Program-made: the position numbers and the translations under genes
In this document: in pieces, positions 8,775 to 64,000 of the stretch
Layout of the letters: each line of letters opens with the position of its first letter
Position numbering within the stretch: position 1 is the stretch's first letter
Notes under the pieces: model-generated
The model's database searches: none
What the model saw: only the letters and a program-made list of their open reading frames with translations
What the model was told of the DNA's origin: nothing
Origin: Candidatus Fermentithermobacillus carboniphilus
GTDB lineage: Bacteria > Bacillota > Sulfobacillia > Fermentithermobacillales > Fermentithermobacillaceae
Direction: 5' to 3'
Length of the DNA stretch: 64,000 nucleotides
Assembly: GCA_018208355.1 (NCBI GenBank)
Contig: CP062796.1
Span: forward strand, 747,217 to 811,216

Positions 8775-9833
8775 CTATTCGATTTTACAGCTGTCGTCCT
8801 TCCCGCACAATCTGTTTGGTGCATAGAGTCTGGCATAGAGAGAAGCCACTTTAAGCGCCTCGAGCATGCTGGTCTCGCGGGCAATGCCTTTTCCCGCTAT
8901 GTCGTAGGCCGTCCCGTGATCCACAGATGTGCGGAGAAACGGCAGGCCCAGAGTCACGCTGACGGTCCGGTCGAAATCCAGAGTCTTAGCAGCAATGTGA
9001 CCCTGGTCGTGATATAGAGAAACAACCGCGTCGTACTTGCCCGTCCTTGCCTGGTAAAATACAGAGTCGGCGGGAACTGGACCGGTTACATCATAGCCGG
9101 ACGAACGCAGTTCACAAACAGCCGGCGCTATCTCTTTTTCTTCTTCATCGCCGAAAAGCCCCCCTTCTCCACAATGAGGATTCAAACCCGCAATGGCGAT
9201 CCGGGGAGCCTTCAGACCCAGAGCGACCAGCGCGTCGTTGCACCTGGGAACGAACTCCACGAGCCGTTTCAGAGTCACAGCTTCTACCGCTTTTCTCAAA
9301 GAAACGTGCCGCGTAAGAAAGAAAATCCTGAGATTATCCACGACAAACATGGTGAGAGGTTCCGGGGTGCCCGTAAGCTCGCCCAAAAACTCTGTGTGTC
9401 CCTTGAACCCTGCGTACCCCGCTTTCACTATCGCCTCTTTATTGATTGGCGCCGTACATATTGCATCGATTCTACCTGCCATAGCAAGTCGCGCTGCCGC
9501 CTCTATCCAAATAAGGGCCGCATGCCCAGACTGGGGCGTGCCGGGTTGAAAGCCGGATGAGCCTCTACCTGAGTCCACGTCGTACACCGCTATTTTTCCA
9601 GGAATATAATCGAATGACCCAAGGTCTTCAGTCCGTTCGGTTTCGACTCGTAAGACTTCGACAGAGCCTCCGAGTCCAAGCCACTCCACGGTTTCTTGTA
9701 AGTAATCTGCATCTCCTATCACGAGGGGCCTCGAGATGTCATAGACTTCAGGATGAGACAACGCCTTTACCGTGATTTCCGGACCTATCCCGGCGGGATC
9801 TCCCATGGTGATACCTATGACAGGTTTCGCCAA
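8775..9833 (-). CDS. pdxA: 4-hydroxythreonine-4-phosphate dehydrogenase family protein (PdxA/PdxA2)
   Basis: A 352-residue PdxA-family dehydrogenase, which oxidises and decarboxylates 4-phosphorylated hydroxy acids with NAD(P). Family signatures run the whole length: GITMGDPAGIGPEITVKAL (N-terminus), ICTAPINKEA, the metal-binding His in GHTEFLGELTG, GLNPHCGEGG, and VSLYHDQGHIAAK with further metal ligands. The length matches the family. True PdxA works in vitamin B6 synthesis; the PdxA2 branch acts on D-threonate or erythronate 4-phosphate. No other B6 gene or DUF1537 kinase is adjacent, so the exact substrate is open. It is a single-gene unit on the minus strand. Confidence 0.92.
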   Translation of the reverse strand: MAKPVIGITMGDPAGIGPEITVKALSHPEVYDISRPLVIGDADYLQETVEWLGLGGSVEVLRVETERTEDLGSFDYIPGKIAVYDVDSGRGSSGFQPGTPQSGHAALIWIEAAARLAMAGRIDAICTAPINKEAIVKAGYAGFKGHTEFLGELTGTPEPLTMFVVDNLRIFFLTRHVSLRKAVEAVTLKRLVEFVPRCNDALVALGLKAPRIAIAGLNPHCGEGGLFGDEEEKEIAPAVCELRSSGYDVTGPVPADSVFYQARTGKYDAVVSLYHDQGHIAAKTLDFDRTVSVTLGLPFLRTSVDHGTAYDIAGKGIARETSMLEALKVASLYARLYAPNRLCGKDDSCKIE

Positions 9834-9980
9834 ACTCGTTCACCTCAACCTAAACTCTACTCACGTTTTAGGTACCCTCAGAAAGATGGTACTTGCCTGC
9901 TTCGGGTATCTCACTCTGAAAGCGGGCCAAAAAATTGAGCTTACGCTGGCTCCCCCTGCCAGTAGAAGCGCTGGCCGCCG

Positions 9981-10364
9981 TCATTTACCTGGCTCTTCGT
10001 CTTTTTCTTCTTCGTCCCCCTTCTCGGTTTTTGCCCTCTTCAGCTTTTCGATTAACTCCGGGATTTTCTCGGCGATCACTTCAACCGTGGTCCTGTTCCC
10101 AAGGTTAAAGACTTGTACGTCGCCGTCTTTCACCGCCACTATGGCCATTGGACGGAGCTTCGCACCAGCCCCTGCGCCTCCACCGGTTCCGCTGCCCTTC
10201 TCCGCCTTACCTTCCGAACCTCCCGAACCGAAACCGAAGGAAACCGCCTGAATCGGAACCAGCGTCACGTTGCCCACGCTGATGGGCTCGCCCACGACTG
10301 TCTTGGTCGTCATGAACTTTTCAAGTTGCGACGCGATAGCATCAAGAGCCTCCTTATGCTCCAC
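9981..10364 (-). CDS. gerW: GerW/YtfJ-family sporulation protein
   Basis: A 127-residue protein of the GerW (YtfJ) family: the core segment TTKTVVGEPISVGNVTLVPI, then a Gly/Ser/Ala-rich loop (GSGTGGGAGAGAKLRPMAIVAV) and NLGNRTTVEVIAEKIPELIEKL, followed by a charged tail rich in Glu and Lys. In Bacillus, GerW is made during sporulation and needed for germination with L-alanine. The start is the GTG at 10364 (GGAGG, 9-base spacer), not the longer upstream frame. It follows the DUF2953 gene by about 110 bp in the same direction, the same pairing as ytfI-ytfJ in Bacillus. Its presence supports a spore-forming host. Confidence 0.88.
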   Translation of the reverse strand: MEHKEALDAIASQLEKFMTTKTVVGEPISVGNVTLVPIQAVSFGFGSGGSEGKAEKGSGTGGGAGAGAKLRPMAIVAVKDGDVQVFNLGNRTTVEVIAEKIPELIEKLKRAKTEKGDEEEKDEEPGK

Positions 10365-10473
10365 TATCCACAACCTCCCTCTTCTTCCATCATTCAGTTC
10401 TAAACTACCATTCCCGAAACGTCGTCCCGCACCACCGTTCAAAGAGCATCCTCTTTGAATGACTCAGTCAAAA

Positions 10474-11322
10474 CTACTTACGCCGGTCCGCCGATAAAGT
10501 ACCGGCTCTCCGGCTCTTCTTCATCCCCTCCCTCCACAAAGGTCTTATCTCAGAAGACAGCAAAAACTTCCCAATGATCCACAGGAGCGCCGCCGGGAAA
10601 ACCCAGGTCTCAATCGACCCTCTCACCAAGAGCATCTCTTCCTCGAAGTTCGGCGAAAATCGCAGTCCCGAAAGACCCACGGAACCTGAAAAAGCAGATG
10701 CGACGCCGTATGCCATCCCTGTGCACGCCGGATCTCCAAAGCCGAACACGATATCGGCGTCTGCCGATAGGTGGGCTGCACTCAAAAGAGAACGTGCCGT
10801 CGAGATGACTCGGCCCCTCAGTTCCGGCTCAAACCACCGCTTGAAGTCCCGGAGCAAAAATCGCCCCCAACCCCTCCTGCCTCCCTCTGGTACCCGGCCC
10901 TCCTTTTTTCCGGGGGCCACCGGCTGGGGCTTTTTTCCGGATCTTTTCGCCGTAAGTTTTTTCACCTCAAGTCTTCTCCCCGTGAACTTTTTCACCCTAA
11001 TCCCCAGAACACTTATCTCAGCCGGCCTCCCTATACCGGCGATAACCCGGACGGCCCCACGCAGGATGCTTCCGCAAAATGATAGGCTTCCGTGGAATGA
11101 CACCTGGTCAAGTATTTCGTCCAACTCGCCTCTTATACAGACATACCCAGACAGGCGGATACCAACTGGAAGGAAAAAGACAGCCAGAGAACCCGCGACG
11201 ATGAAAAAGATGACGATGGCCAGTATTCTCCAGACCAAAGTAGAGACGACCGTCAAGATCCCCCCAATACGGAACCTGCCCTCCCTCCATAAGCTTCCGG
11301 CATCATCAAAGGTCTTCTTCAA
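10474..11322 (-). CDS. DUF2953 membrane protein (YtfI-like)
   Basis: A 282-residue protein with one N-terminal membrane segment (about residues 22-52, VVSTLVWRILAIVIFFIVAG), a basic middle (KKFTGRRLEVKKLTAKRSGKKP) and a C-terminal region with the DUF2953 signature DPACTGMAYGVASAF...LRFSPNFEEEMLLVRGSIE. Its function is unknown. In Bacillus the homologous ytfI lies next to ytfJ/gerW and is thought to belong to the sporulation programme; the same neighbour is seen here. A 12-bp identical motif, GACTCAGTCAAA, occurs both 3' (10461) and 5' (11448) of this gene. The true start could be the ATG used here or a nearby downstream codon. Confidence 0.75.
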   Translation of the reverse strand: MKKTFDDAGSLWREGRFRIGGILTVVSTLVWRILAIVIFFIVAGSLAVFFLPVGIRLSGYVCIRGELDEILDQVSFHGSLSFCGSILRGAVRVIAGIGRPAEISVLGIRVKKFTGRRLEVKKLTAKRSGKKPQPVAPGKKEGRVPEGGRRGWGRFLLRDFKRWFEPELRGRVISTARSLLSAAHLSADADIVFGFGDPACTGMAYGVASAFSGSVGLSGLRFSPNFEEEMLLVRGSIETWVFPAALLWIIGKFLLSSEIRPLWREGMKKSRRAGTLSADRRK

Positions 11323-11533
11323 TCAGGTCTTACATTCCTCTATCTGGATACCCTTTGTTTCGCATTCACGGGCAGGAGAATTCGGCCCGCACCGAGAAAC
11401 GGGGTAATGCGGGGAAAGGTGTCTATGGCCAATGCGAGCCAGTCAAAGACTCAGTCAAAGATAAGTTTATTGCAAAGAGTACTTAGAAGACGGCTCGACG
11501 CACAAATTGGGGCAAGGAAAGGACGATAAGCGG

Positions 11534-54233: not shown

Positions 54234-54649
54234 TTCACTCTATCCTCCTGCCACAAACACATATGCAAAAAAGAGCTCCCTAGACTATTCTTTCGGGGAA
54301 CCGGTAAGAACGTAAAGAGGAATTCTCCGGAACTAGAAAATCCCCTTCCATGAACGGCCGGCCTTCTGCAAAGGGCCGGGGTCGCCGGGCGCTCCCTTGA
54401 CAGCCCGGACCGATCTCAATCCCCCGCGCGCCTCGATGTGGACCCGTTACTATCGAGCTCGCGATGTGCCGCGCAGCCCCGTTCAGCAAGCGTGTGGTCG
54501 CGCCGGTAAATCTTGCAAGGTTCCGATAAGCCAAGACCCCGTCCCTTCTGGGGGACGGGGTCTTGGCCGCGGTGCACCCTATTTGGGCGGAAGATCGCTC
54601 TAGAGGCGCAGAAATCAGCACAGCAATCGGTACGGCAATCTGAGGGACT
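54234..54649. other. Intergenic stretch between capD-like and dgaF-like genes
   Basis: No gene is supported; long frames here are GC-rich shadows over the hairpin at 54531-54566. The promoter of the CapD-like gene should be in 54240-54500, but no clear boxes are seen. Confidence 0.5.
54531..54566 (-). terminator. Very strong 15-bp hairpin after the dgaF-like gene
   Basis: CCAAGACCCCGTCCC (54531-54545) pairs perfectly with GGGACGGGGTCTTGG (54552-54566), loop of six bases. It lies about 85 bp after the last gene of the nine-gene operon. No T-run follows on either strand, so it may act as an mRNA 3' stabiliser as much as a terminator. Confidence 0.65.
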
Positions 54650-55420
54650 TCAGACTCCAAGCACTTCCTTTGCAGCAACGTAAAGCTCGCGTACCTTACC
54701 AGGCATCGTCTTGCCGCTTGACTTGTCAATTATGGACGAGTAGACATGCGGTATAACGTACGTCGCACCCGCAGAAAACGCCGTCTCCAGGACCCTGCGC
54801 AAGTTCTCGACTGTTATGCCCCCGGTGGGCTCGAATACCGGTATGCCTTCGGCGGAACACGCCGAGACCAGCGCTTTCATCTCTTCATAGCGCTCGTTCA
54901 GCGGGAAAAACTTCACCGACAAAAGCCCCTGCTCTTTAAGAATAGCCACGGCAGCCTCGCACGGTATTTCGGCGGGACCTCTTTTTGAGCTCAGGGGACC
55001 CGTGGCAATGTTCACGAAACCCGGTTTTCCGGTGGGAGACACGAGGCTGTTTATGAGGGGTATGTCCTCTCCGTATCTTCCTTTGAGGACCGCAGCTGTA
55101 TAAGAAGAAAGCGGGAAAACCTGGTTGATGTGGGCCGGCCGCGCTAAAAGCGCAACCTGGATTACCGCCTCCCACTGGGCCGGGTCTCCCCCTCCGAGAC
55201 CCAGTGATACCGACGCCCCCGCGCGCGAAAACCTCAATACCGCCTCAGCACCGCTCTTCGCATCCGGGTAGTCTCTGGTCAGCACTCCTATGAGAGCGTG
55301 TCCCTCGCAGGCGTCCATGACTTCCACCAGGTTCTCCTCGTCGCGGGCAAGGAAGTTAAACATGACTTTCCCGCCGAGCCAGTTCCAAGCGCTAAAATCA
55401 CCATGTTTTGGCTGAATCAT
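54650..55420 (-). CDS. DgaF-like KDGP aldolase family protein
   Basis: A 256-residue TIM-barrel aldolase of the family (PF07071) containing Salmonella DgaF, which splits 2-keto-3-deoxy-6-phosphogluconate into pyruvate and glyceraldehyde 3-phosphate. Visible are LIGVLTRDYPDAKSGAEAVL, AGASVSLGLGGGDPAQWEAV, PLINSLVSPTGKPGFVNIAT, the Lys-containing QGLLSVKFFPLNERYEEM (Schiff-base candidate) and GIPVFEPTGGITVENLRRVL. The ATG at 55420 has GGAGG 7 bases ahead and lies just after the DgaE-like stop. It is the last gene of the operon and gives the presumed end step of the pathway. Confidence 0.88.
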   Translation of the reverse strand: MIQPKHGDFSAWNWLGGKVMFNFLARDEENLVEVMDACEGHALIGVLTRDYPDAKSGAEAVLRFSRAGASVSLGLGGGDPAQWEAVIQVALLARPAHINQVFPLSSYTAAVLKGRYGEDIPLINSLVSPTGKPGFVNIATGPLSSKRGPAEIPCEAAVAILKEQGLLSVKFFPLNERYEEMKALVSACSAEGIPVFEPTGGITVENLRRVLETAFSAGATYVIPHVYSSIIDKSSGKTMPGKVRELYVAAKEVLGV

Positions 55421-55422
55421 AT

Positions 55423-56523
55423 CTAACCCTCCAATAGCTCACGTATGCGTTTTATGATGATCTCCGAATCTTGCGGCCGTAGAGGTCTTGGGTCGATGGC
55501 GACACAATTAAGGTTCAGGTAGTGGTCGCGAGTGAATATGGCCACGGAGCCCTGGCGTAATTGTGACACAAACTCGCGGGCGCTTATCCTGGCATCTTCC
55601 GTGAATTCCATCCACACTCTCGGAATAGGCCGTCCTGCCTCATCGTATTTCTTACTTACCTTGATACCGCGTATGCCGCTTATGCCCCTCATGATGGTCT
55701 CAACCACAGCTTCTCTCTCAGAGAGAGCATCTACGTTCCCTGCCACATACTTTTCGAGGGCACATAAAAGACCCGCTATGGCTTCCTTTCCGACCTTCAT
55801 CGAGCGACCGATGCCACGGTACTGGAGCCTCACACCATCGATGAGCCCTTTCTTGCCGCACACAAATCCCGATGTAGGCCCACCAACGGCCTTTGCGCCT
55901 GAGTACACTACAAGATCCGCTCCGAGGTCAATGTACTTATGGAGATCCTCTTCGGCTGCAGCATCCACTATCACCGGAAGACCGTGCGCGTGAGCTATTT
56001 CAACGTACTCTTCTACAGATAGCATACCCTTCTGGACACAGTGGTGAGACTTTACATATATAAGGGCTGCCGTGTCCTCATCGATGGCCTCTTCCACATC
56101 GGCACGCGTCACCATGTTGGCACACCCGACTTCGACCGGGATACCCCCAGGTATCCGTATCATCTGAGTGACCGGGGCGCCAAAATCCACTGCATGTCCT
56201 TTCTGGATAATGACCCTGTTCCTGAGCCCTTCCGTCACCGGCAGTTTCTTGATAAGCGCCTCCTCGGTCCCCGTCATGCACGAGGCGACAGAAAGGGCGA
56301 TCCCAGCTGCGGCACCCACCGTGGGACATGCTGCTTCCGCCCCTACTAGAGCGGCAATCTTCTTTCCCGATTCAACGATGAGTTCCTCCATGTCGAAGTA
56401 ATCTTGCGCCGCCTCCGCCATGGAACCTGCTACGTCGGCTGTAACGGCAGTACCTCCAAGATGTGTCATCTTTCCACTGGCATTTATTACCCGGGTGAGC
56501 TCCAATCCATCTCTCCAGCTCAT
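55423..56523 (-). CDS. DgaE-like PLP-dependent ammonia-lyase (SelA-like fold)
   Basis: A 366-residue fold-type I PLP enzyme. The cofactor Lys is in ADLVVYSGAKAVGGPTSGF, the Asp in PVIVDAAAEEDLHKYIDLG and the start is TRVINASGKMTHLGGTAV, all typical of DgaE and SelA-like proteins. DgaE removes ammonia from D-glucosaminate 6-phosphate to give 2-keto-3-deoxy-6-phosphogluconate, the substrate of the next enzyme. Family members act on related 2-amino sugar acids, so the exact compound is not certain. The ATG has GGAGG 7 bases ahead. It is separated by 184 bp from the DUF4310 gene upstream and abuts the aldolase gene. Confidence 0.88.
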   Translation of the reverse strand: MSWRDGLELTRVINASGKMTHLGGTAVTADVAGSMAEAAQDYFDMEELIVESGKKIAALVGAEAACPTVGAAAGIALSVASCMTGTEEALIKKLPVTEGLRNRVIIQKGHAVDFGAPVTQMIRIPGGIPVEVGCANMVTRADVEEAIDEDTAALIYVKSHHCVQKGMLSVEEYVEIAHAHGLPVIVDAAAEEDLHKYIDLGADLVVYSGAKAVGGPTSGFVCGKKGLIDGVRLQYRGIGRSMKVGKEAIAGLLCALEKYVAGNVDALSEREAVVETIMRGISGIRGIKVSKKYDEAGRPIPRVWMEFTEDARISAREFVSQLRQGSVAIFTRDHYLNLNCVAIDPRPLRPQDSEIIIKRIRELLEG

Positions 56524-56707
56524 ACAAGCACCTCCGAACCAGAAGCGCAGGAAAGGGACTGGTGGCTGAGGCTACCCTTGCCCGGTCTCCTGCATCTTTT
56601 GGTTTTGCTCCGAACTCCCTTTTCGAACGACGAGAGGCCCGGCTCGTCCCCAAAAGTCAAGACCACCGGACAGACCACCGGACCTCCTTCTTTTTCTCAC
56701 TTTTTTC

Positions 56708-57337
56708 TCACTTTACCGGGAAAATCGTCCCCAAGATCATTGCCCCGAGGATCGCTCCCCCGGGTATAGGCTTCTTGAGATAGTAGAACAACGCCGCCCC
56801 AAGAAAAGCACCGATTCCCGCCGGAATGCTGTAGCTGATGGCCGAAATGATGATGAGGGGACCCAGGTACCGACCCATCGCGTTCCCTGCACCCATCATG
56901 ACGTCGGTTCCCGCCGCCGAGAGGCCTTGCGGCATGGATTTCCTGACAAGCAGTATGACCAGCCCTACAACAAGACCGGCAAGGGCGCCGAAGAGCACAG
57001 CCGTGGTGAAATTCTCGATGAGACCTTTATAGCCCGAGGCAATGAGTAAGGCGGGAATCCCGATCCCGACGCCCGTCATAAGGGAGCCACCAATGTCCAG
57101 GACACCGACAAGGGGGCCTTCCAGCACCCGCGCGATAAGAAACCCTGCGGCAAAACTCGCTGCAGCGGCGTAGTCCCCTGTTTGAAGCCCATTTGACAGC
57201 ATCTGAACCACGAATATCTCGTTAAACGCGCCAACCCTGTTTGTCAGGAAGAGGCTTGTCCCACCCATAATTCCCGCACAAGCAACCGCAACTATCAAAG
57301 GGAAGGCGAGATCCGTCATCAAGAAACTTTTATGCAT
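56708..57337 (-). CDS. DUF4310 membrane protein
   Basis: A 209-residue integral membrane protein with about six Gly/Ala-rich helices (AFPLIVAVACAGIMGGTSLF, YAAAASFAAGFLIARVLEG, VGVLDIGGSLMTGVGIGIPA, AVLFGALAGLVVGLVILLV, MGAGNAMGRYLGPLIIISA, AGIGAFLGAALFYYLKKPIP). It belongs to DUF4310, a family known to me from one conserved cluster (named after Enterococcus faecalis EF_0829-EF_0839). The ATG has GGGGG 8 bases ahead. It probably forms the membrane part of a transporter with DUF4311. No transport motif is assigned. Confidence 0.88.
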   Translation of the reverse strand: MHKSFLMTDLAFPLIVAVACAGIMGGTSLFLTNRVGAFNEIFVVQMLSNGLQTGDYAAAASFAAGFLIARVLEGPLVGVLDIGGSLMTGVGIGIPALLIASGYKGLIENFTTAVLFGALAGLVVGLVILLVRKSMPQGLSAAGTDVMMGAGNAMGRYLGPLIIISAISYSIPAGIGAFLGAALFYYLKKPIPGGAILGAMILGTIFPVK

Positions 57338-57364
57338 GAGTTCATCCCCCTAGATTGAACCTCG

Positions 57365-58090
57365 TCATAGCGCGAAAGCCTTGAAGAACTTAACGTGGAA
57401 CCCGCGGAAGTACGCTATGCTTGCGAAGAGTATCACGACTATCGTCAAAAGGATCTTGACCGACTTATTCCAGCCATTCTCCTCGACGTTCTTACCGATT
57501 ATGATGCCGAGAACGCATCCAGGTACCGCGTTGCCCATGATCATTTGAGCTAGCCCGCCCAGCAGTGTGGCTGCAACACCAGACTGAACGCCAGCATCAA
57601 GAGCCGCAAGCCAGAAGATAATGGGCATTATGGGGTTAATAAGCCAGTTGGACGCCTGGCCCAGCACTTTTGAAGCAACCACTGCCATGCTGGAGGGCAC
57701 GGCAGACGAGATGGTGTTGAGCAAGGTTACGACGACCGCACCGACTATAGCTCCCGCCATACCCATGAGTCTTGTGTTGTTCAAGGGTTCAGAGGTGTCT
57801 TTGGTCTTCAGAAGCACCAGGGCGCTCGCCCAGTTCGGGACTATTCGGTGCAACACGTCCTGGGTCAGGGCGCCCGCACCCACGACAGACGCCGCAGAGT
57901 TAAAAAGGAATCCGAGCCCGAACATGAAATGGGAAACGGGGTCCCCTTTGCACGCGTTGAGCTCTCCGAGGGTCCGGAAGGCGCCCATAGACTGGATCTC
58001 CGGGGCGTGGAACATTCTCACGGCCCCGACTGTCACTGCCCAGCCAGCCAGCGCACCCACTATCACGCTTTTCACTACCAGCGATAACAT
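57365..58090 (-). CDS. DUF4311 membrane protein
   Basis: A 241-residue protein with about six membrane helices (VVKSVIVGALAGWAVTVGA, MFGLGFLFNSAASVVGAGAL, LMGMAGAIVGAVVVTLLNT, LINPIMPIIFWLAALDAGV, VAATLLGGLAQMIMGNAVPG, ILLTIVVILFASIAYFRGF). The DUF4311 features are the FHAPEIQSMGAFRTLGELNA loop and NGW before the last helix. Start ATG 58090 with GGAGG ahead, 4 bp after the DUF4312 stop. Always found, as far as I recall, with DUF4310 and DUF4312, consistent with a heteromeric uptake system. Function unproven. Confidence 0.88.
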   Translation of the reverse strand: MLSLVVKSVIVGALAGWAVTVGAVRMFHAPEIQSMGAFRTLGELNACKGDPVSHFMFGLGFLFNSAASVVGAGALTQDVLHRIVPNWASALVLLKTKDTSEPLNNTRLMGMAGAIVGAVVVTLLNTISSAVPSSMAVVASKVLGQASNWLINPIMPIIFWLAALDAGVQSGVAATLLGGLAQMIMGNAVPGCVLGIIIGKNVEENGWNKSVKILLTIVVILFASIAYFRGFHVKFFKAFAL

Positions 58091-58094
58091 TTAT

Positions 58095-58400
58095 CTATTC
58101 CTCCTCTAGCCTCTCTGGCAACTTCACGTATTTGGCAAGGACTTCTATGATTGCCGTAATCACGTACCTTTCACGCACCCTGGGAAACAGGATCTCCAGG
58201 AATCTTTCGGTGTAAGTCTGCCTTTCGAGTTTCTCAACCTTGAATGCAACCGGCTCTAGATATACGAGAGGGTGCCGCTCTTCGGCGTAGATCTTTCGCC
58301 TGAGTTCTCCGAAGCACTTCTGCACAGCCTGGGCAAACGTTTCGCCGCTGCCTTTCACGTGAATCTCACGAGTTTCAGTCCGCAGCAGGTCTTCAGCCAT
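58095..58400 (-). CDS. DUF4312 small soluble protein
   Basis: 101 residues, soluble, mixed alpha/beta: TREIHVKGSGETFAQAVQKC, FGELRRKIYAEERHPLVYLE, PVAFKVEKLERQTYTERFL, FPRVRERYVITAIIEVLAKY. One Cys (about residue 29) is present, but no His or Cys motif comparable to PTS carriers stands out. DUF4312 is a companion of the DUF4310/DUF4311 membrane proteins. It may be a cytosolic subunit of the transporter. The ATG has AGGAGGAG 4 bases ahead. Confidence 0.85.
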   Translation of the reverse strand: MAEDLLRTETREIHVKGSGETFAQAVQKCFGELRRKIYAEERHPLVYLEPVAFKVEKLERQTYTERFLEILFPRVRERYVITAIIEVLAKYVKLPERLEEE

Positions 58401-58410
58401 TTAGCTCCTC

Positions 58411-58815
58411 CTACGAGTTTGAGCCTGACCCCGGCTTTTCCGCCGCTTCCTGTTCCTCAAGGATTTTCCTGTACTCCTCCACCACCCGTCGCCCAAGTTC
58501 CTCGCTGTCCAGGAACCCGAAGCCCAGGACTCTCGCGCCATTCCTCAGGGCCGTGATCCCGGATTCAATTGAACGCAGATGGTGTTCAGCCTTGTATCCG
58601 TACTTTGTCTGCGCCACGATGGCCCCGGCACCACCGCTTCCGCAAAACGAAAGCCCGAGGTCGGCATCGTTTTCTTTCATATAGTCTCCGACTTTCATGT
58701 CTGCAGCCATACCAGGGATGTGGATGGCAATACCGCCAGCTTCTTCCACGCCTTTGACGACTTTGCGGGCCCTGCCCAGCCGGTCGCCTATGACAACCTT
58801 AATTTTCCTGTCCAT
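58411..58815 (-). CDS. Glycine-rich SFCGS family protein (looks RpiB-like)
   Basis: A 134-residue soluble protein named for its SFCGS motif (PF14272). Start ATG 58815 (MDRKIKVVIGDRLGRARKVV) has GGGGG ahead and overlaps the PRD gene. Its arrangement matches ribose-5-phosphate isomerase B/LacAB proteins: an N-terminal strand followed by G-D, then a central D-L-G-L-S-F-C-G-S-G-G-A-G-A segment that parallels the RpiB catalytic CGTGIG loop, then GARVLGFGFLDSEELGRRVV paralleling GARVIG...A..IV. This suggests a sugar-phosphate isomerase-like fold with a retained active-site Cys. That is a by-eye comparison. Its established family has no known function. Confidence 0.82.
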   Translation of the reverse strand: MDRKIKVVIGDRLGRARKVVKGVEEAGGIAIHIPGMAADMKVGDYMKENDADLGLSFCGSGGAGAIVAQTKYGYKAEHHLRSIESGITALRNGARVLGFGFLDSEELGRRVVEEYRKILEEQEAAEKPGSGSNS

Positions 58816-59242
58816 CTTGTTTACCCCCGTTTCTGCTAGCTGCAATGTGTGTCGCAACCAGCACCGCTTCAGGTCTCGTGAGAATGGCGCCCATCCGCCT
58901 GTACAGAGGCTCAAGCCCACTGAACACGGCGTTTATTAGGCTTTCGCCCACCTCCTTTTCTATCGCACTCCCGACATCGGAAACGGACTCACCTCTGCGC
59001 GCTCTAACCACGCAACCCACCATGTGAGAGAGAAACGCTTTCAGGGCCGGATATTCAAACCGCACCCCTTGTTGTCGGGCCACTTCTATGGCGCTTTCTG
59101 AAAGGTTCCAGGCATCTTCGGCTACATCGTCCGGCACCGCCTGTTCCGCGCAGATTTCCAAGAACGCTTTCCGCGCCAATTCCTCATATGCACTAAGCTC
59201 TAAATTGCGTTGCTGTGGCACTTTCACCGACGATTCCAACAT
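58799..59242 (-). CDS. Stand-alone PRD domain protein
   Basis: A 147-residue all-helical protein with a single PTS regulation domain. The two conserved His are in YPALKAFLSHMVGCVVRARR and RPEAVLVATHIAASRNGG. There is no DNA-binding or PTS module. In related clusters this protein (EF_0829 type) accompanies DUF4312 and the SFCGS protein, so it may be a phospho-sensing regulatory subunit of the transporter. The start follows AGGAGG directly after the amidohydrolase stop, and its 3' end overlaps the SFCGS start by 17 bp. Confidence 0.85.
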   Translation of the reverse strand: MLESSVKVPQQRNLELSAYEELARKAFLEICAEQAVPDDVAEDAWNLSESAIEVARQQGVRFEYPALKAFLSHMVGCVVRARRGESVSDVGSAIEKEVGESLINAVFSGLEPLYRRMGAILTRPEAVLVATHIAASRNGGKQDGQEN

Positions 59243-60370
59243 CTAGACCTCCTGAGCACTCAGCAAAATCTCGCCGCCCTTCATGACCATGACCGGGGCC
59301 AGCCTTAAGGTTGACTTCAACTCATTCCCATCTGAGTCGAAAAGCAAGGATTCCCCTTCCACGAGACGCCAAAGTACCAGGTCGGCGACGTAACCCGGTG
59401 CTATCGCGCCCAAGCTGTTCAGCCCGAGATTCTTCGCCACGCGCGTGCTAGCAAGTTCTAGAACCTCTACCGGGTCCATCCCCAGTGCCAGAAATTTAGA
59501 CAATGTGAGGGGCAGGTCGCCTACCTTGGAGATACTCTGCAGGTGGAGGTCCGAGGATATTGAGTCGGGACCGAATCCTTTATCCAAGCATTTCCTCATC
59601 ACGTTTACGTTGAAACTGGCGTTGCCATGACCAACGTCAAAGAGTACCCCTCTTTCCCGGGCTTCCATGGCCTCCGGGATGACGTCACCGGATTCGGTCA
59701 GGATTCCCCCAGGTTTGCCGTGGAAAGCATGGGTAACTATATCACCCGCTCCTAGAAGGCTTAAAACATCCGGAAGATGAGGAGGGGCGTTTCCGACATG
59801 TACCATAACCCTCATACCTAACCTTCTCGCCATGGCGACTCCCTGGCGTATCGGTTCTATCCCCATCTTGCCAACCACCGAAGAACTGGCCCTGAGTTTC
59901 ATCCCCACAACAAGCTCGTTCCTTGCAAAAGGCTCCAATTCGTCATAAGTGGCGAGTTTTTCCGGTGCGTCCAGTTCGCTCAACGAACCCGCAAGCCCGT
60001 AGCGGGCAAAGTTAATCCACGAAAGCACCCGCGTTTTCTGAGTCAAAATAGCCCTATCCACAAATTCTTGAAAGTTCAGAGGACCCGCCGATCCTGCATC
60101 GATGACCGTAGTCACCCCTGTGCGGTACCCTACTTCGTCGGCCATAAGCCCCAGCACAGCGCCGGGGTAAACGTGGACGTGAAGGTCCACCAACCCGGGA
60201 CTCAGAAGATTTCCCCGTGCATCTATTGCGGTTTCACCCTCCGAGAGTTCAAGATTCGTCCCGACCTCCGCTATCACGCCATCGCGCACTCTCACGTCGG
60301 CAAGACCACGGAAAGACGGGATACTTCCCGCAAGACGCGCGTTCTTGAACAGAATTCCTTGCGTCATCAC
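59243..60370 (-). CDS. Amidohydrolase/deacetylase family metallohydrolase (EF_0837 type)
   Basis: A 375-residue TIM-barrel amidohydrolase. The metal ligands are HVH in LSPGLVDLHVHVYPG, Lys in VVGMKLRASSSVVG (carbamylated Lys candidate), His in MRVMVHVGNAPPHLPDV and DIVTHAFHGKPGG, and Asp in DSISSDLHLQSI. It belongs to the group annotated as EF_0837/AHA_3915 type, often named deacetylase. In this operon it could remove an acyl group from an amino-sugar acid before the DgaE-like step. The start overlaps the regulator stop (ATGA). Its specificity is not shown. Confidence 0.87.
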   Translation of the reverse strand: MMTQGILFKNARLAGSIPSFRGLADVRVRDGVIAEVGTNLELSEGETAIDARGNLLSPGLVDLHVHVYPGAVLGLMADEVGYRTGVTTVIDAGSAGPLNFQEFVDRAILTQKTRVLSWINFARYGLAGSLSELDAPEKLATYDELEPFARNELVVGMKLRASSSVVGKMGIEPIRQGVAMARRLGMRVMVHVGNAPPHLPDVLSLLGAGDIVTHAFHGKPGGILTESGDVIPEAMEARERGVLFDVGHGNASFNVNVMRKCLDKGFGPDSISSDLHLQSISKVGDLPLTLSKFLALGMDPVEVLELASTRVAKNLGLNSLGAIAPGYVADLVLWRLVEGESLLFDSDGNELKSTLRLAPVMVMKGGEILLSAQEV

Positions 60371-62280
60371 CAGTCACTTCCTTTGTACCTGAGCATGCAG
60401 ATGTATTCTTGGGGAGGTAGGTCTGTACGTAAGAGGGCCTCCACTCGCTCGAAACATTTTTTCAAGACAGCCATGAGCGCGGCATCGTAGTCACATTCCG
60501 GTTCGGGGGGCGCGAACTCTCCGTTTCGCCACCGCGGGCAAGCGAGGAGAGCATGGATTAGAAGTCCGGTTTGCTCATCGGCCGTAAGCCCCGCTTCTTT
60601 GCCAAACTCGGTGCAAGCGCGAATGACCTCGACCTGAATCTCATCATCTGTAAGCGGAATCAAATCCGTTGGAATGCCGGGTGGTTGACTCATCTGTGAC
60701 GCAGGAGACAAACCCGGTACGTTTGAAAGAGAAGTCCCCTTGGCCCGGAAAGTGCTCGAGGCATCCTTGCGGGCATTACAGCCTAAAGCAGGTCTTTCCA
60801 GAGACTCGAGCGGGTCAGCCGGTACCGGAGACCTCTTAACCTTTGCACAGGCATCTTTTATCCTCTTCAAATCCCCCTCACCGAGAAGCGGGGACACGTG
60901 GACCCATGGTATCCCCGGTTCCTTTCCCGGGGGAAATCCGACCGTACTGATTATCAGCTGAGGTCGCTTTGCTTCGACCTCGCGTTCAAGTTCCGAAAGC
61001 GACGTTACTCCATCCAGCTGAACTTCGGGGCACATCGACTCGAGCCGCGCTGAAAGAAACCTGGCAGTTCCAAGTCCGGTGGTACACACTACCAGGGCCC
61101 TGATCTTCCGGGGGGCAATAAGGCGTTGCATCGACGCCCCGATATGCATCGCCACGTACGCGACTTCATCGTCGGAAATGAGCCCGGAAAGAGAAGGGCA
61201 CGACTCACACGCCCTTTTGGCTACGTTAAAGAGGCCAGGATATTTCTTCATGATCTCTTTCTTAAATGGGTTATTGATGATAACGCCTGCTTCGGAAGCA
61301 CTGAGGGTCCAAGCAAGGTGAAACTTCAGGGATAAGAGTAGACCGTGGTCCTCTTCTACGTGTATACCGGTCTCAGCCGAGACCCTTTCTATGATCTCTT
61401 TGGCAGCGTCATGCGCTCGTCGCAACAATTGTTTATTGTGCGCCGAAAACGATTTGTCACCTTCTGCCACCCGGGCTAGCGATTCCTGCCTCACTTTATC
61501 TGCTTCAAGATAGATGGCGACATAGAGTTTCTCATGCTCGGGCAAGGAAAGCCCCACAACCGACCCTACAGAGGCCACGATCTTTCCGGCGCGGTCAAGC
61601 ATCTCCGGGTCCGATGGCTCCGGGAGCGTGCCCGGTAATATCTCCGTCCCCGGTGAGTTTCGCATCTTCTGAATTGATGCCCAGAGGTGCATCGCTATAG
61701 CAGTTTTCGTGCCGTCGAGGAGCCCGTACGAACCGGTCGAGTCCACTTCTTCTATAGCTTTGCGGATTACCTTAAAATACATCGCACCAAGCCCGGACTC
61801 GGGGTTTTCGACAAGGGCCGCAAGAGCCCTCCGGAAAGAAGTCTCGCTCCCCTCGACCTTGACGAGCCCTCTCCCGGCAGACTTCAGTTCCACGCCGAAT
61901 GTCCTAAGTTTACTCCCGCAGCGCCTGAGGGATTGCCGGACCGTATTCCTTGAGACCGCGAGCTCCGCCGAAAGCTCCTTTATCGAGAGGGGATGTGGAT
62001 CGGTGAGCAATCTGTACAGGATGAGATGCTCTCTGGAGACGACATCATCGGGGCACGAGCTCAACAACCTGGATAGTGCCTGGAGAAGCTTCTGGATAGC
62101 CTCATCCGGTCCGCTCAGCCAGAGACCTACGCCCGGTTTCGACTCCAGGACGACATCAGTCGCGGTGTCCCGGATCCAGTCCCGGACTTTTCCGAGGTCG
62201 CTCCGCACCGTGCGAACGGTCACTCCGAGCTCCCTCGCGATTTCAGAAGCTGTTACAGGCGCGTTTGAACCTGCTATCAT
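60367..62280 (-). CDS. BglG/LicR-type PRD transcriptional regulator
   Basis: 637 residues: HTH (PVTASEIARELGVTVRTVRSD), second HTH (LSIKELSAELAVSRNTVRQS), PRD1 (about 175-290; LLDGTKTAIAMHLWASIQK, LPEHEKLYVAIYLEADK), PRD2 (about 300-395; DHGLLLSLKFHLAWTL, SDDEVAYVAMHIGASM) and an EIIB-like domain (IRALVVCTTGLGTARFLSAR, with the phospho-Cys). The C-terminus, after a low-complexity linker, is a further short helical PRD-like piece (ADEQTGLLIHALLACPRW) rather than an EIIA domain. It likely activates the nine-gene operon it heads. The start is uncertain: ATG 62280 has a weak binding site and the conserved N-terminus continues about 15 codons upstream. Confidence 0.88.
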   Translation of the reverse strand: MIAGSNAPVTASEIARELGVTVRTVRSDLGKVRDWIRDTATDVVLESKPGVGLWLSGPDEAIQKLLQALSRLLSSCPDDVVSREHLILYRLLTDPHPLSIKELSAELAVSRNTVRQSLRRCGSKLRTFGVELKSAGRGLVKVEGSETSFRRALAALVENPESGLGAMYFKVIRKAIEEVDSTGSYGLLDGTKTAIAMHLWASIQKMRNSPGTEILPGTLPEPSDPEMLDRAGKIVASVGSVVGLSLPEHEKLYVAIYLEADKVRQESLARVAEGDKSFSAHNKQLLRRAHDAAKEIIERVSAETGIHVEEDHGLLLSLKFHLAWTLSASEAGVIINNPFKKEIMKKYPGLFNVAKRACESCPSLSGLISDDEVAYVAMHIGASMQRLIAPRKIRALVVCTTGLGTARFLSARLESMCPEVQLDGVTSLSELEREVEAKRPQLIISTVGFPPGKEPGIPWVHVSPLLGEGDLKRIKDACAKVKRSPVPADPLESLERPALGCNARKDASSTFRAKGTSLSNVPGLSPASQMSQPPGIPTDLIPLTDDEIQVEVIRACTEFGKEAGLTADEQTGLLIHALLACPRWRNGEFAPPEPECDYDAALMAVLKKCFERVEALLRTDLPPQEYICMLRYKGSDW

Positions 62281-62581
62281 ACTCAGTATTGATGCAGGCC
62301 TTCTGGCAAGATACGCGATTTTGCTCGCCCCCAGTCAAAGCTGACAGTCCGTCTTGCCACCAAACACGTAGCACCTTTTCGCTCTTAATGATAGACTTAT
62401 AAAAACAGCGCTTCAACTGGGCTATTTCCGGATGTTTGTACATTTATTTTCACCATTTTAGATGGTGAAAGAAAATGTATCATCTTCAATACACCATGTT
62501 GTCTTCGATCGGGGTTTCAATCAGACAACGCCTGCGGAAATCAAAGTGATGCCGAAGAGGGGAAATGATCTTTCACTATGC
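62281..62581. other. Intergenic region ahead of the PRD-regulated operon
   Basis: Contains no gene. It should hold the operon promoter and operators and the end of the upstream ATPase gene; the main visible structure is the palindrome at 62440-62478. The 15 codons before 62280 stay open in the regulator frame and resemble the normal start of this family. Confidence 0.6.
62440..62478. promoter_or_regulatory. Long imperfect palindrome, candidate operator of the nine-gene operon
   Basis: Left arm ACATTTATTTTCACCAT (62440-62456) and right arm ATGGTGAAAGAAAATGT (62462-62478) are 17-bp inverted repeats with two mismatches around a 5-base centre. It lies 160 bp upstream of the regulator start. It is AT-rich, unlike the surrounding DNA, and suits an operator for the PRD regulator or a transcript hairpin. 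There is no direct evidence for binding. Confidence 0.6.
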
Positions 62582-63237
62582 TCATAAACTCACGAATTCC
62601 TTGACCTTTTCCCAGAGTCTACGTACTTCCCGAGTTGCGGGACAATCGAGTTTTACCACGGGCATTCCCTGGACCATGGCTTTCGGTACGTTCTCGTCAT
62701 AAGGGATCTTGCCCACAACAGGTATATCCCGTTCCCGGCACTTTGCCTCGATCTCCCCAGAGTGTTCCGGGCTGATATCGTATTTGTTTATACACACAGC
62801 GGCGGGAACCCCAAAATGCCTGCACACTTCGAGCACCCGATCGAGGTCGTGAAAACCCAAAACCAATGTCCTGATAATACCGGATACATCTCAACCGCGC
62901 CAGCCGGACAAAGCCGCGAACAAACCCCGCAACCTTCGCATGACCACGGGTCCACCTGAAAATCATGGATGGCCTCAAACCTGCAGCGCTCTCCACACTG
63001 GCCACACTCAATGCACTTATCTTTGTGGATCCTGGCCTTCTTTGAAGCCTGGAATTCGCGGGTTTCCAGGTGCTCCGCGTTCAAGATGAGTTCGAGGTTG
63101 GCAGCGTCAACGTCACAGTCACAGAGCACAGCGTCTCCAGAAAGCATGGCAAACCCGCCGGCGATAGAAGTCTTGCCAGTGCCACCTTTTCCGCTGATCA
63201 GTACTATCTCCTTTACGCCTTGTCGCACCCTGGACAC
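62582..63237 (-). pseudogene. MinD-type ATPase with ferredoxin insert, internal deletion and frameshift
   Basis: The N-terminal piece (about 118 residues) has the P-loop VLISGKGGTGKTSIAGGFAM and two 4Fe-4S motifs (CIECGQCGERC and CEGCGVCSRLC). It then loses similarity after CPAGAVEM. The matching C-terminal piece (HDLDRVLEVCRHFGVPAAVC, INKYDI, IPYDENVPKAMVQGMPVVKL) continues in a different frame from about 62860. In intact relatives about 80 residues, including the Walker B D-x-P-P-G region, lie between these parts, and they are missing here. The neighbouring paralogue retains them. The gene is thus non-functional as a whole, unless the assembly is wrong. Confidence 0.8.
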
Positions 63238-63309
63238 TCCCCATTTCTTCCCGTGGAGGACACATTCAAGTAAAAACTTGCTGGACGTAGCTTTCGTGAC
63301 TGAAGATCC

Positions 63310-64000
63310 TCAGTTTGGCCGACCCTGCGCATGCCCAGTTTTCAGGTTGCCCCTGGAAATCTCCAGGATACGATGTCTGAGTTCCCTGAACATCTCCGCG
63401 TATTCCGGATAACGCTCTGTCAGAGTTTCCCCCCTGGCGTAAGACCTCGCGATCATCCTGTCGAAAGGGATCTTCAGTAATACCGGGATTCCACTTTGCT
63501 GGCAAAATCGTTCAATCCTGTCATCGCCGATATCGCTGCGGTTAATCACCACACCCGAGGGCACCATCAGTTTTCGGGTGACTTCGTAAGCGATCTGAAG
63601 GTCGTGAAACCCGAAAGGTGTCGGCTCGGTGACAAGGATACAAAAATCACTTCCCTTGACAGATCCGACCATGCCGCATGATGTTCCGGGAGGAGAGTCG
63701 ATTATTACGATACCATCTCCGAGGGCCGTGTTCCGCACGGCGGATATCAGCGGAGCCGCAACCGCCTCACCGGGGTTCAGTATGCCGTGACTGAATATAC
63801 CCTTCTTAGCAAGCCCGGTTTCCAGGACACCTATCTTTCTTCCCTTTTCGCTGATGGCGCCCTTTGGACAAAATACGCTACAGGCACCGCACCCGTGACA
63901 GAGTTCTTCAAACACCATAATTCTTCTGTTCGTAGCCAAAATAGCGTTAAACGCACAGACTTCCGCGCAAACACCGCAATGGGAGCACTTATTTTCGTCC
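63310..64000 (-). CDS. MinD-type ATPase with ferredoxin insert, partial (5' end outside window)
   Basis: The visible 230 codons start within the ferredoxin insert: DENKCSHCGVCAEVC, then LCHGCGACSVFCPKGAI, each a 4Fe-4S motif. They continue with Walker-B-type GIVIIDSPPGTSCG, VTEPTPFGFHDLQIA, VVINRSDIGDDRIERFC and PVLLKIPFDRMIARSYA. The P-loop lies beyond the right edge. Proteins of this type occur as tandem pairs in anaerobic Bacillota and are related to Mrp/ApbC cluster carriers; their role is not settled. The Cys sets are intact, unlike the deleted copy 73 bp downstream. Confidence 0.88.
   Translation of the reverse strand, partial: DENKCSHCGVCAEVCAFNAILATNRRIMVFEELCHGCGACSVFCPKGAISEKGRKIGVLETGLAKKGIFSHGILNPGEAVAAPLISAVRNTALGDGIVIIDSPPGTSCGMVGSVKGSDFCILVTEPTPFGFHDLQIAYEVTRKLMVPSGVVINRSDIGDDRIERFCQQSGIPVLLKIPFDRMIARSYARGETLTERYPEYAEMFRELRHRILEISRGNLKTGHAQGRPN

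Follow-up and report, generated by a model that had tools for sequence, protein, structure and literature searches.

A conserved nine-gene operon of Candidatus Fermentithermobacillus carboniphilus suggestive of PTS-coupled uptake and catabolism of a 2-amino-2-deoxy-aldonate

The window analysed here is a stretch of 64,000 nt from Candidatus Fermentithermobacillus carboniphilus (contig CP062796.1, positions 747,217 to 811,216). The ORF listing, Pfam and NCBIfam revealed nine minus-strand genes that form one block at window positions 54650–62280. On balance, we regard it as somewhat probable that this operon serves the uptake, coupled to the phosphoenolpyruvate (PEP)-dependent phosphotransferase system (PTS), and the catabolism of an N-acylated or free 2-amino-2-deoxy-aldonate. 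A PTS-type permease is favoured because related operons are linked to genes for HPr and enzyme I (EI) but not enzyme II (EII), because a phosphate-binding lyase is encoded without a kinase, and because of the gene content, a PRD–SFCGS fusion and two soluble proteins with invariant His and Cys residues. The nine genes, from the regulator to dgaF, are as follows.

60367–62280, minus strand: PRD-containing transcription regulator (637 aa) with HTH_11, Mga HTH, PRDs and an EIIB-like segment containing CTTGLGT
59243–60370, minus strand: EF_0837/COG3964-type amidohydrolase, presumed N-deacylase (375 aa)
58799–59242, minus strand: stand-alone PRD-like protein, candidate His phosphocarrier (147 aa)
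58411–58815, minus strand: SFCGS protein (PF14272/EF_0830), RpiB/LacAB-like, candidate EIIB-like phosphocarrier
58095–58400, minus strand: DUF4312 protein (EF_0831), soluble (101 aa)
57365–58090, minus strand: DUF4311 protein (EF_0832), integral membrane, candidate permease subunit (241 aa)
56708–57337, minus strand: DUF4310 protein (EF_0833), integral membrane, candidate second permease subunit (209 aa)
55423–56523, minus strand: DgaE-family pyridoxal phosphate (PLP)-dependent ammonia lyase (366 aa)
54650–55420, minus strand: DgaF/EF_0839-type KDGP aldolase (256 aa)

Consecutive genes are separated by −4, 0, −17, +10, +4, +27, +184 and +2 nt, and a purine-rich ribosome-binding site was recognisable at most of the nine. 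The SFCGS gene starts at 58815, and not at the GTG at 58920 that opens the longest ORF. An earlier account of this DNA, made without database searches (the sequence-only reading), had described a tight leftward block of nine genes; its genes, strand and coordinates stand, but the block is looser at the 184 nt gap between the DUF4310 gene and dgaE. That account had also traced the family names to E. faecalis, and NCBIfam does use EF_083x names for them. Pfam matches were strong for DUF4311 (1.5e-103), DUF4310 (5e-91) and Gly_rich_SFCGS (1.1e-56), with 1.2e-15 for DUF4312.

The enzyme families support the route of deacylation, ammonia elimination and aldol cleavage that had first been read from the sequence. 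The amidohydrolase matched Amidohydro_1 and PRK09237 (2.9e-105), with 2ics and 2ogj as relatives, and inspection revealed the metal-ligand motifs HVH, GMK, VHVG, THAFHG and SSDLH; its scores were below the cut-offs of PRK09237 (352 against 371) and TIGR03583 (282 against 432). The lyase passed the DgaE family model TIGR01437 (434.6 bits, cut-off 385.3) and matched the structure 7LC0 of Salmonella D-glucosaminate-6-phosphate ammonia lyase (DGL) at 2.6e-90. The dgaF product matched KDGP_aldolase in Pfam (PF07071, 1.3e-72, 244.6 bits) and reached the cut-off of TIGR03581. DgaF-type aldolases use 2-keto-3-deoxygluconate 6-phosphate (KDG-6-P). A glucosaminate-like N-acyl-2-amino-2-deoxy-aldonate is suggested as substrate, with the reservation that the operon enzymes did not reach the NCBIfam equivalog cut-offs for D-glucosaminate-6-phosphate lyase and DgaF aldolase; the dgaF product scored 259.7 bits against 300 for NF047796, and the lyase further scored 393.2 against 600 bits in NCBIfam.

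The catalytic Lys211, the His pair HH160-161 and the equivalents of Arg302/332/346 in the phosphate pocket are conserved in the lyase. In the 74 aligned lyases, including that of the window, the PLP lysine, the HH pair and three phosphate-pocket arginines were invariant. The substrate phosphate of Salmonella DGL has been modelled beside Arg301, Arg332 and Arg346, and it is the mannose-family PTS permease DgaABCD that produces this substrate (PMC9529869). Since the Arg triad is conserved in 74 of 74 sequences, the operon lyase must, as judged from these residues, act on a phosphorylated substrate.

A scan of a genome collection with DUF4311 as query returned 79 loci, in Firmicutes and gammaproteobacteria, and the operon corresponds to the conserved hypothetical set EF_0830-0839/AHA_3911-3917 of NCBIfam. 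The regulator, SFCGS, DUF4311 and DUF4310 were present in 79 of 79 loci, and the amidohydrolase, lyase and aldolase in 73–74. The stand-alone PRD gene, missed by BLAST, was found in 78 loci, either as an ORF of its own or fused to SFCGS; in the remaining one, from Acidaminobacter sp. JC074, the PRD is fused C-terminally to the amidohydrolase (L041:7782-9266). The PRD–SFCGS fusion ORFs encode 248 aa and belong to Erysipelotrichaceae (L067:8912-9658, L068:8912-9658 and L071:8919-9665); the first two loci are near-identical and come from one metagenome-assembled genome, so the fusion was seen in two genomes. Four loci (L004, L005, L039 and L050) carry the module without catabolic enzymes, and two others (L060 and L077) lie on short contigs or lack some enzymes. 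Brevibacillus daliensis carries SFCGS-DUF4312-DUF4311-DUF4310 twice in tandem (L002:3324-5519 and 9248-11435).

An HPr gene lay in or adjoining the operon in 25 of the 79 loci, 12 of which also had an EI gene; Pfam confirmed HPr and full-length EI in these linked genes, which were separated by short or no gaps in most loci. This tally includes the HPr-EI pair of E. ratti (L072), though it resembles housekeeping ptsHI, and excludes neighbours of the Rahnella NPr type. Three Paenibacillus loci (L004, L005 and L050) have the HPr gene at the head of regulator-PRD-SFCGS-DUF4312-4311-4310, without catabolic enzymes. In Paenibacillus L009 and Acidaminobacter L041 the regulator is preceded by HPr-EI, and in Fusibacter L076 by HPr, whilst HPr follows dgaF by 14–33 nt in Brevibacillus L018 and L025 (the latter with EI) and Caproiciproducens L080; in UBA5286 (L073), dgaF is followed by a HAD phosphatase gene and then HPr-EI. 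As these positions vary by lineage, they argue for repeated recruitment of HPr/EI to the operon. The HPr/EI-linked operons contained no EIIA, EIIB, EIIC or EIID gene, and their ORFs were fully accounted for, leaving no room for one. About 18 loci (L032-L058 and related ones of Rahnella/Ewingella/Rouxiella) share a chromosomal position in which an NPr-like gene faces the operon regulator; from its sequence we take this gene to be ordinary ptsO.

EI was present in all 12 module-bearing genomes tested of the phylum, compared with 73 of 199 sampled genomes from which the positives had been taken out by hand (Fisher p ~7e-6, or ~1e-4 when families/genera were counted). It was also present in 48 of 48 further module genomes, most of whose clades have EI regardless; the UBA5286 genome (G159 = G438) was counted in both the 12 and the 48. 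The phosphorylation-coupled control that the PRD proteins had suggested to the sequence-only reading is supported as PTS involvement and is extended by the HPr/EI linkage. With a lyase that needs a phosphorylated substrate and relatives that bring HPr/EI, the module looks like a phosphorylating permease.

Two soluble proteins are candidates for the phosphocarriers of such a permease. The stand-alone PRD of the window gave no Pfam PRD match on its own; it aligned with 85 orthologues showing the PRD-type pattern of His, Arg, Glu and His, and several relatives match PF00874. His73, Arg80 and Glu125 were invariant in 86 of 86 stand-alone PRDs, those of the yhf type (see below) included, and His132 was found in 85. 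The C-terminus of the regulator, where that of the window has a weak PRD-like stretch, carries PTS_EIIA_2 in a gammaproteobacterial orthologue (L032) and a third PRD in Firmicutes (L041 and L073), an alternation that, by analogy, is compatible with an EIIA-like role for a PRD. The stand-alone PRD is likely to be a phosphocarrier and more than a regulator. In the SFCGS protein, Cys58 sits in a CGSGG-GA loop and was invariant, together with Asp39, Gly61, Ala65 and Gly98, in 87 of 87 SFCGS/YhfU proteins.

These features of SFCGS could also be those of an RpiB/LacAB-type sugar-phosphate isomerase or epimerase acting in the pathway, with the Cys as proton-transfer base. Its top match in the PDB was LacB 4lfk, it matched NCBIfam RPI_actino (6.9e-5), a relative matched LacAB_rpiB (0.0099), the CGSG/CGTG motif is common to both families, and the rpiB alignment scored above all shuffles. 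We consider this explanation improbable: Cys58 is kept but the His of the E. coli RpiB QHND motif is not conserved in SFCGS, the aldonate route via DgaE and DgaF requires no isomerase, and the YhfU relatives stand beside quite different enzymes but never without a neighbouring PRD and membrane protein.

DUF4311 and DUF4310 were predicted to be all-helical (pLDDT 82 and 81, pTM 0.63). Invariant residues were R25, R39, E43, D50, H54, H81, R82 and N187 in DUF4311, and R70, E73, D81, N152 and R156 in DUF4310. The two had been proposed, with DUF4312 and SFCGS, as the uptake candidates of the operon, and they remain so in a block without a known transporter. No other convincing Pfam family was found for either protein. 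A possible relation of DUF4311 to AgaC (hmmsearch E=0.008, from a tiny set) was rejected, the shuffled control being nearly equal.

Alternatively, the DUF module might be a membrane sensor or enzyme complex, with the substrate entering by a mannose-type PTS permease or another transporter. The genome of the window encodes EI, two HPr-family proteins and three mannose-type EII loci, and no PF02378 EIIC; the absence of a PTS permease noted earlier thus holds for the operon but not genome-wide. The three EII loci adjoin galactosamine/aldolase-type genes, however, the genome has a single full DgaE copy, and no known permease in it could be assigned specifically to this pathway. The linkage of the module to dgaE/dgaF in 73–74 of 79 loci, and a pair of polytopic subunits with numerous invariant charged residues, which suit a permease, make a sensor or enzyme complex the least probable of the alternatives.

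The yhf operon of E. coli is built on a similar plan, in which YhfY (stand-alone PRD), YhfU (DUF2620, a Cys/Gly-rich RpiB-like protein) and YhfT (a polytopic membrane protein) are encoded beside PLP and phosphotriesterase-like, amidohydrolase-fold enzymes. The genome of the window also has a yhf-type operon (L095, ~1,016,254–1,025,139), with genes for a YhfZ-like regulator, a stand-alone PRD, DUF2620, YhfT, a degenerate amidase, a phosphotriesterase-like protein and YhfS, YhfX and YhfW homologues. The stand-alone PRD aligned with the YhfY family (hhalign 96%, P 1.3e-9), and the homology of SFCGS to YhfU/DUF2620 was supported too (P 1e-5, score 36.4, the best shuffle reaching 22.2). The yhf system differs in having one 430 aa membrane protein in place of two, no DUF4312, and other enzymes and another regulator.

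Several observations weigh against a phosphorylating permease. No EIIC, EIID or other PTS family appeared among the Pfam matches of 35 DUF4311 and 35 DUF4310 proteins, and among the soluble operon proteins no EIIA or EIIB domain was recognised, the matches being PF14272, PF14189 and PRD. In the structure-library comparison that the sequence-only reading had called for, Foldseek with models of moderate confidence returned no significant PDB fold match for DUF4310 or DUF4311, the DUF4312 profile had a marginal match to the Alba fold of 2h9u (E=0.0036), and SFCGS, with LacB on top as described above, is RpiB/LacAB-like and outside the known EIIB fold. A homology of the YhfT halves to DUF4310/4311, suggested by eye at the N-terminus, was rejected, as hhalign and hmmsearch scores fell within those of shuffled and reversed controls. 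The co-occurrence with EI would be expected from PTS-dependent PRD proteins alone, and the linked HPr/EI could serve the PRD regulator only. Finally, in Paenibacillus L006 (L006:1577-5551) and L007, amidohydrolase-DgaE-DgaF is followed by a PfkB kinase gene beside dgaF and a GntR regulator gene, with the HPr-headed DUF module separate and downstream; the kinase could supply the phosphate there.

The chief rival draws on the same evidence. DUF4310 and DUF4311, possibly with DUF4312 and SFCGS, would then form a non-phosphorylating transporter that takes up the free acid by facilitation or with ions as the driving force, the PTS would only switch the PRDs, and a separate or promiscuous kinase would make the 6-phosphate. 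The membrane proteins without EII similarity, the PfkB kinase in the catabolic cluster of the two Paenibacillus loci and the standing of PRDs as established PTS-controlled regulatory domains all agree with it. We nevertheless judge it unlikely, although clearly less so than an isomerase or a sensor: the window operon and most orthologous operons have no kinase gene, the stand-alone PRD is fused to SFCGS and not to a regulator, own copies of EI would be unusual if their purpose were control only, and the yhf operon retains a stand-alone PRD despite its non-PRD, YhfZ-type regulator.

Under the favoured reading of PTS-coupled uptake, the permease in the membrane would consist of DUF4311 and DUF4310, EIIA and EIIB would be replaced by the stand-alone PRD and SFCGS, and DUF4312 would be accessory. 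Phosphate would pass from PEP through EI and HPr to His73 (or His132) of the PRD, then to Cys58 of SFCGS and to the substrate at the permease. The amidohydrolase would take off the N-acyl group, the DgaE-type lyase would eliminate ammonia from the 6-phospho-amino-aldonate to give a 2-keto-3-deoxy-aldonate-6-phosphate, and the DgaF-type aldolase would cleave the latter to pyruvate and glyceraldehyde-3-phosphate, with the PRD regulator sensing the same phosphorelay. More tentatively, the EF_083x and yhf operons together may represent a new class of PTS permease, with a PRD standing for EIIA, an RpiB-like Cys protein (SFCGS/DUF2620) for EIIB and DUF4311+DUF4310 or YhfT, as a membrane module of new fold, for EIIC/EIID; the specific relay from PRD to SFCGS to substrate is proposed with slightly greater reserve. 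If the relay is true, the PTS would gain a transporter class with unrelated phosphocarriers, PRDs would gain a direct role in energy coupling, and functions would be found for DUF4310, DUF4311, DUF4312, SFCGS, DUF2620 and YhfT, including those of the E. coli yhf operon. The DUF families concerned occur in many gut and soil bacteria, and the cluster has so far been ‘conserved hypothetical’ in NCBIfam.

Two candidate control elements flank the operon.

62439–62479, no strand assigned: inverted repeat, candidate operator, a 41 nt near-palindrome before the regulator gene
54530–54567, minus strand: GC-rich hairpin 3′ of dgaF, with a perfect 16 bp stem and without a long T run

The arms of the inverted repeat are 18 nt long and 89% complementary, with a 5 nt spacer, and the core is unique within the 2.3 Mb genome; the repeat is likely to be the operator of the operon, and the hairpin is the probable transcript end. 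No Rfam elements were found in the operon region, and promoter and terminator consensus scans gave matches at chance level only. Upstream, on the same strand (62582–63939), are genes for MinD/Mrp-type Fe-S cluster ATPases with ferredoxin motifs (CxxCxxC), one of which is apparently split over two ORFs (62582–62866 and 62788–63237); by content they lie outside the operon.

The same gene set as in the window is found in E. faecalis EF_0829-EF_0839 and Aeromonas AHA_3911-3917, for which the models TIGR03577-03583 assign no function; a search of the available literature for the DUF families, the EF loci and yhf likewise found no functional account. The EF_0830, EF_0832, EF_0833 and EF_0839 models were exceeded here and those of EF_0831 and EF_0837 were not, and the amidohydrolase gene follows the regulator in the window but DUF4310 in enterococci. 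The D-glucosaminate operon dgaABCDEF of Salmonella shares the DgaE-type lyase, the DgaF-type aldolase, the phosphate-pocket arginines and an uptake expected to phosphorylate C6. It has a mannose-family EIIABCD, whereas the window operon has none and differs further in its additional amidohydrolase, its PRD regulator within the operon and its DgaE and DgaF scores below the equivalog cut-offs. None of the four DUF proteins belongs to a known EII family or fold; known PTS permeases are nevertheless resembled in the suggested dependence on EI and HPr and in the candidate His and Cys phosphocarriers, and the two-subunit membrane part is like the EIIC and EIID of the mannose family.

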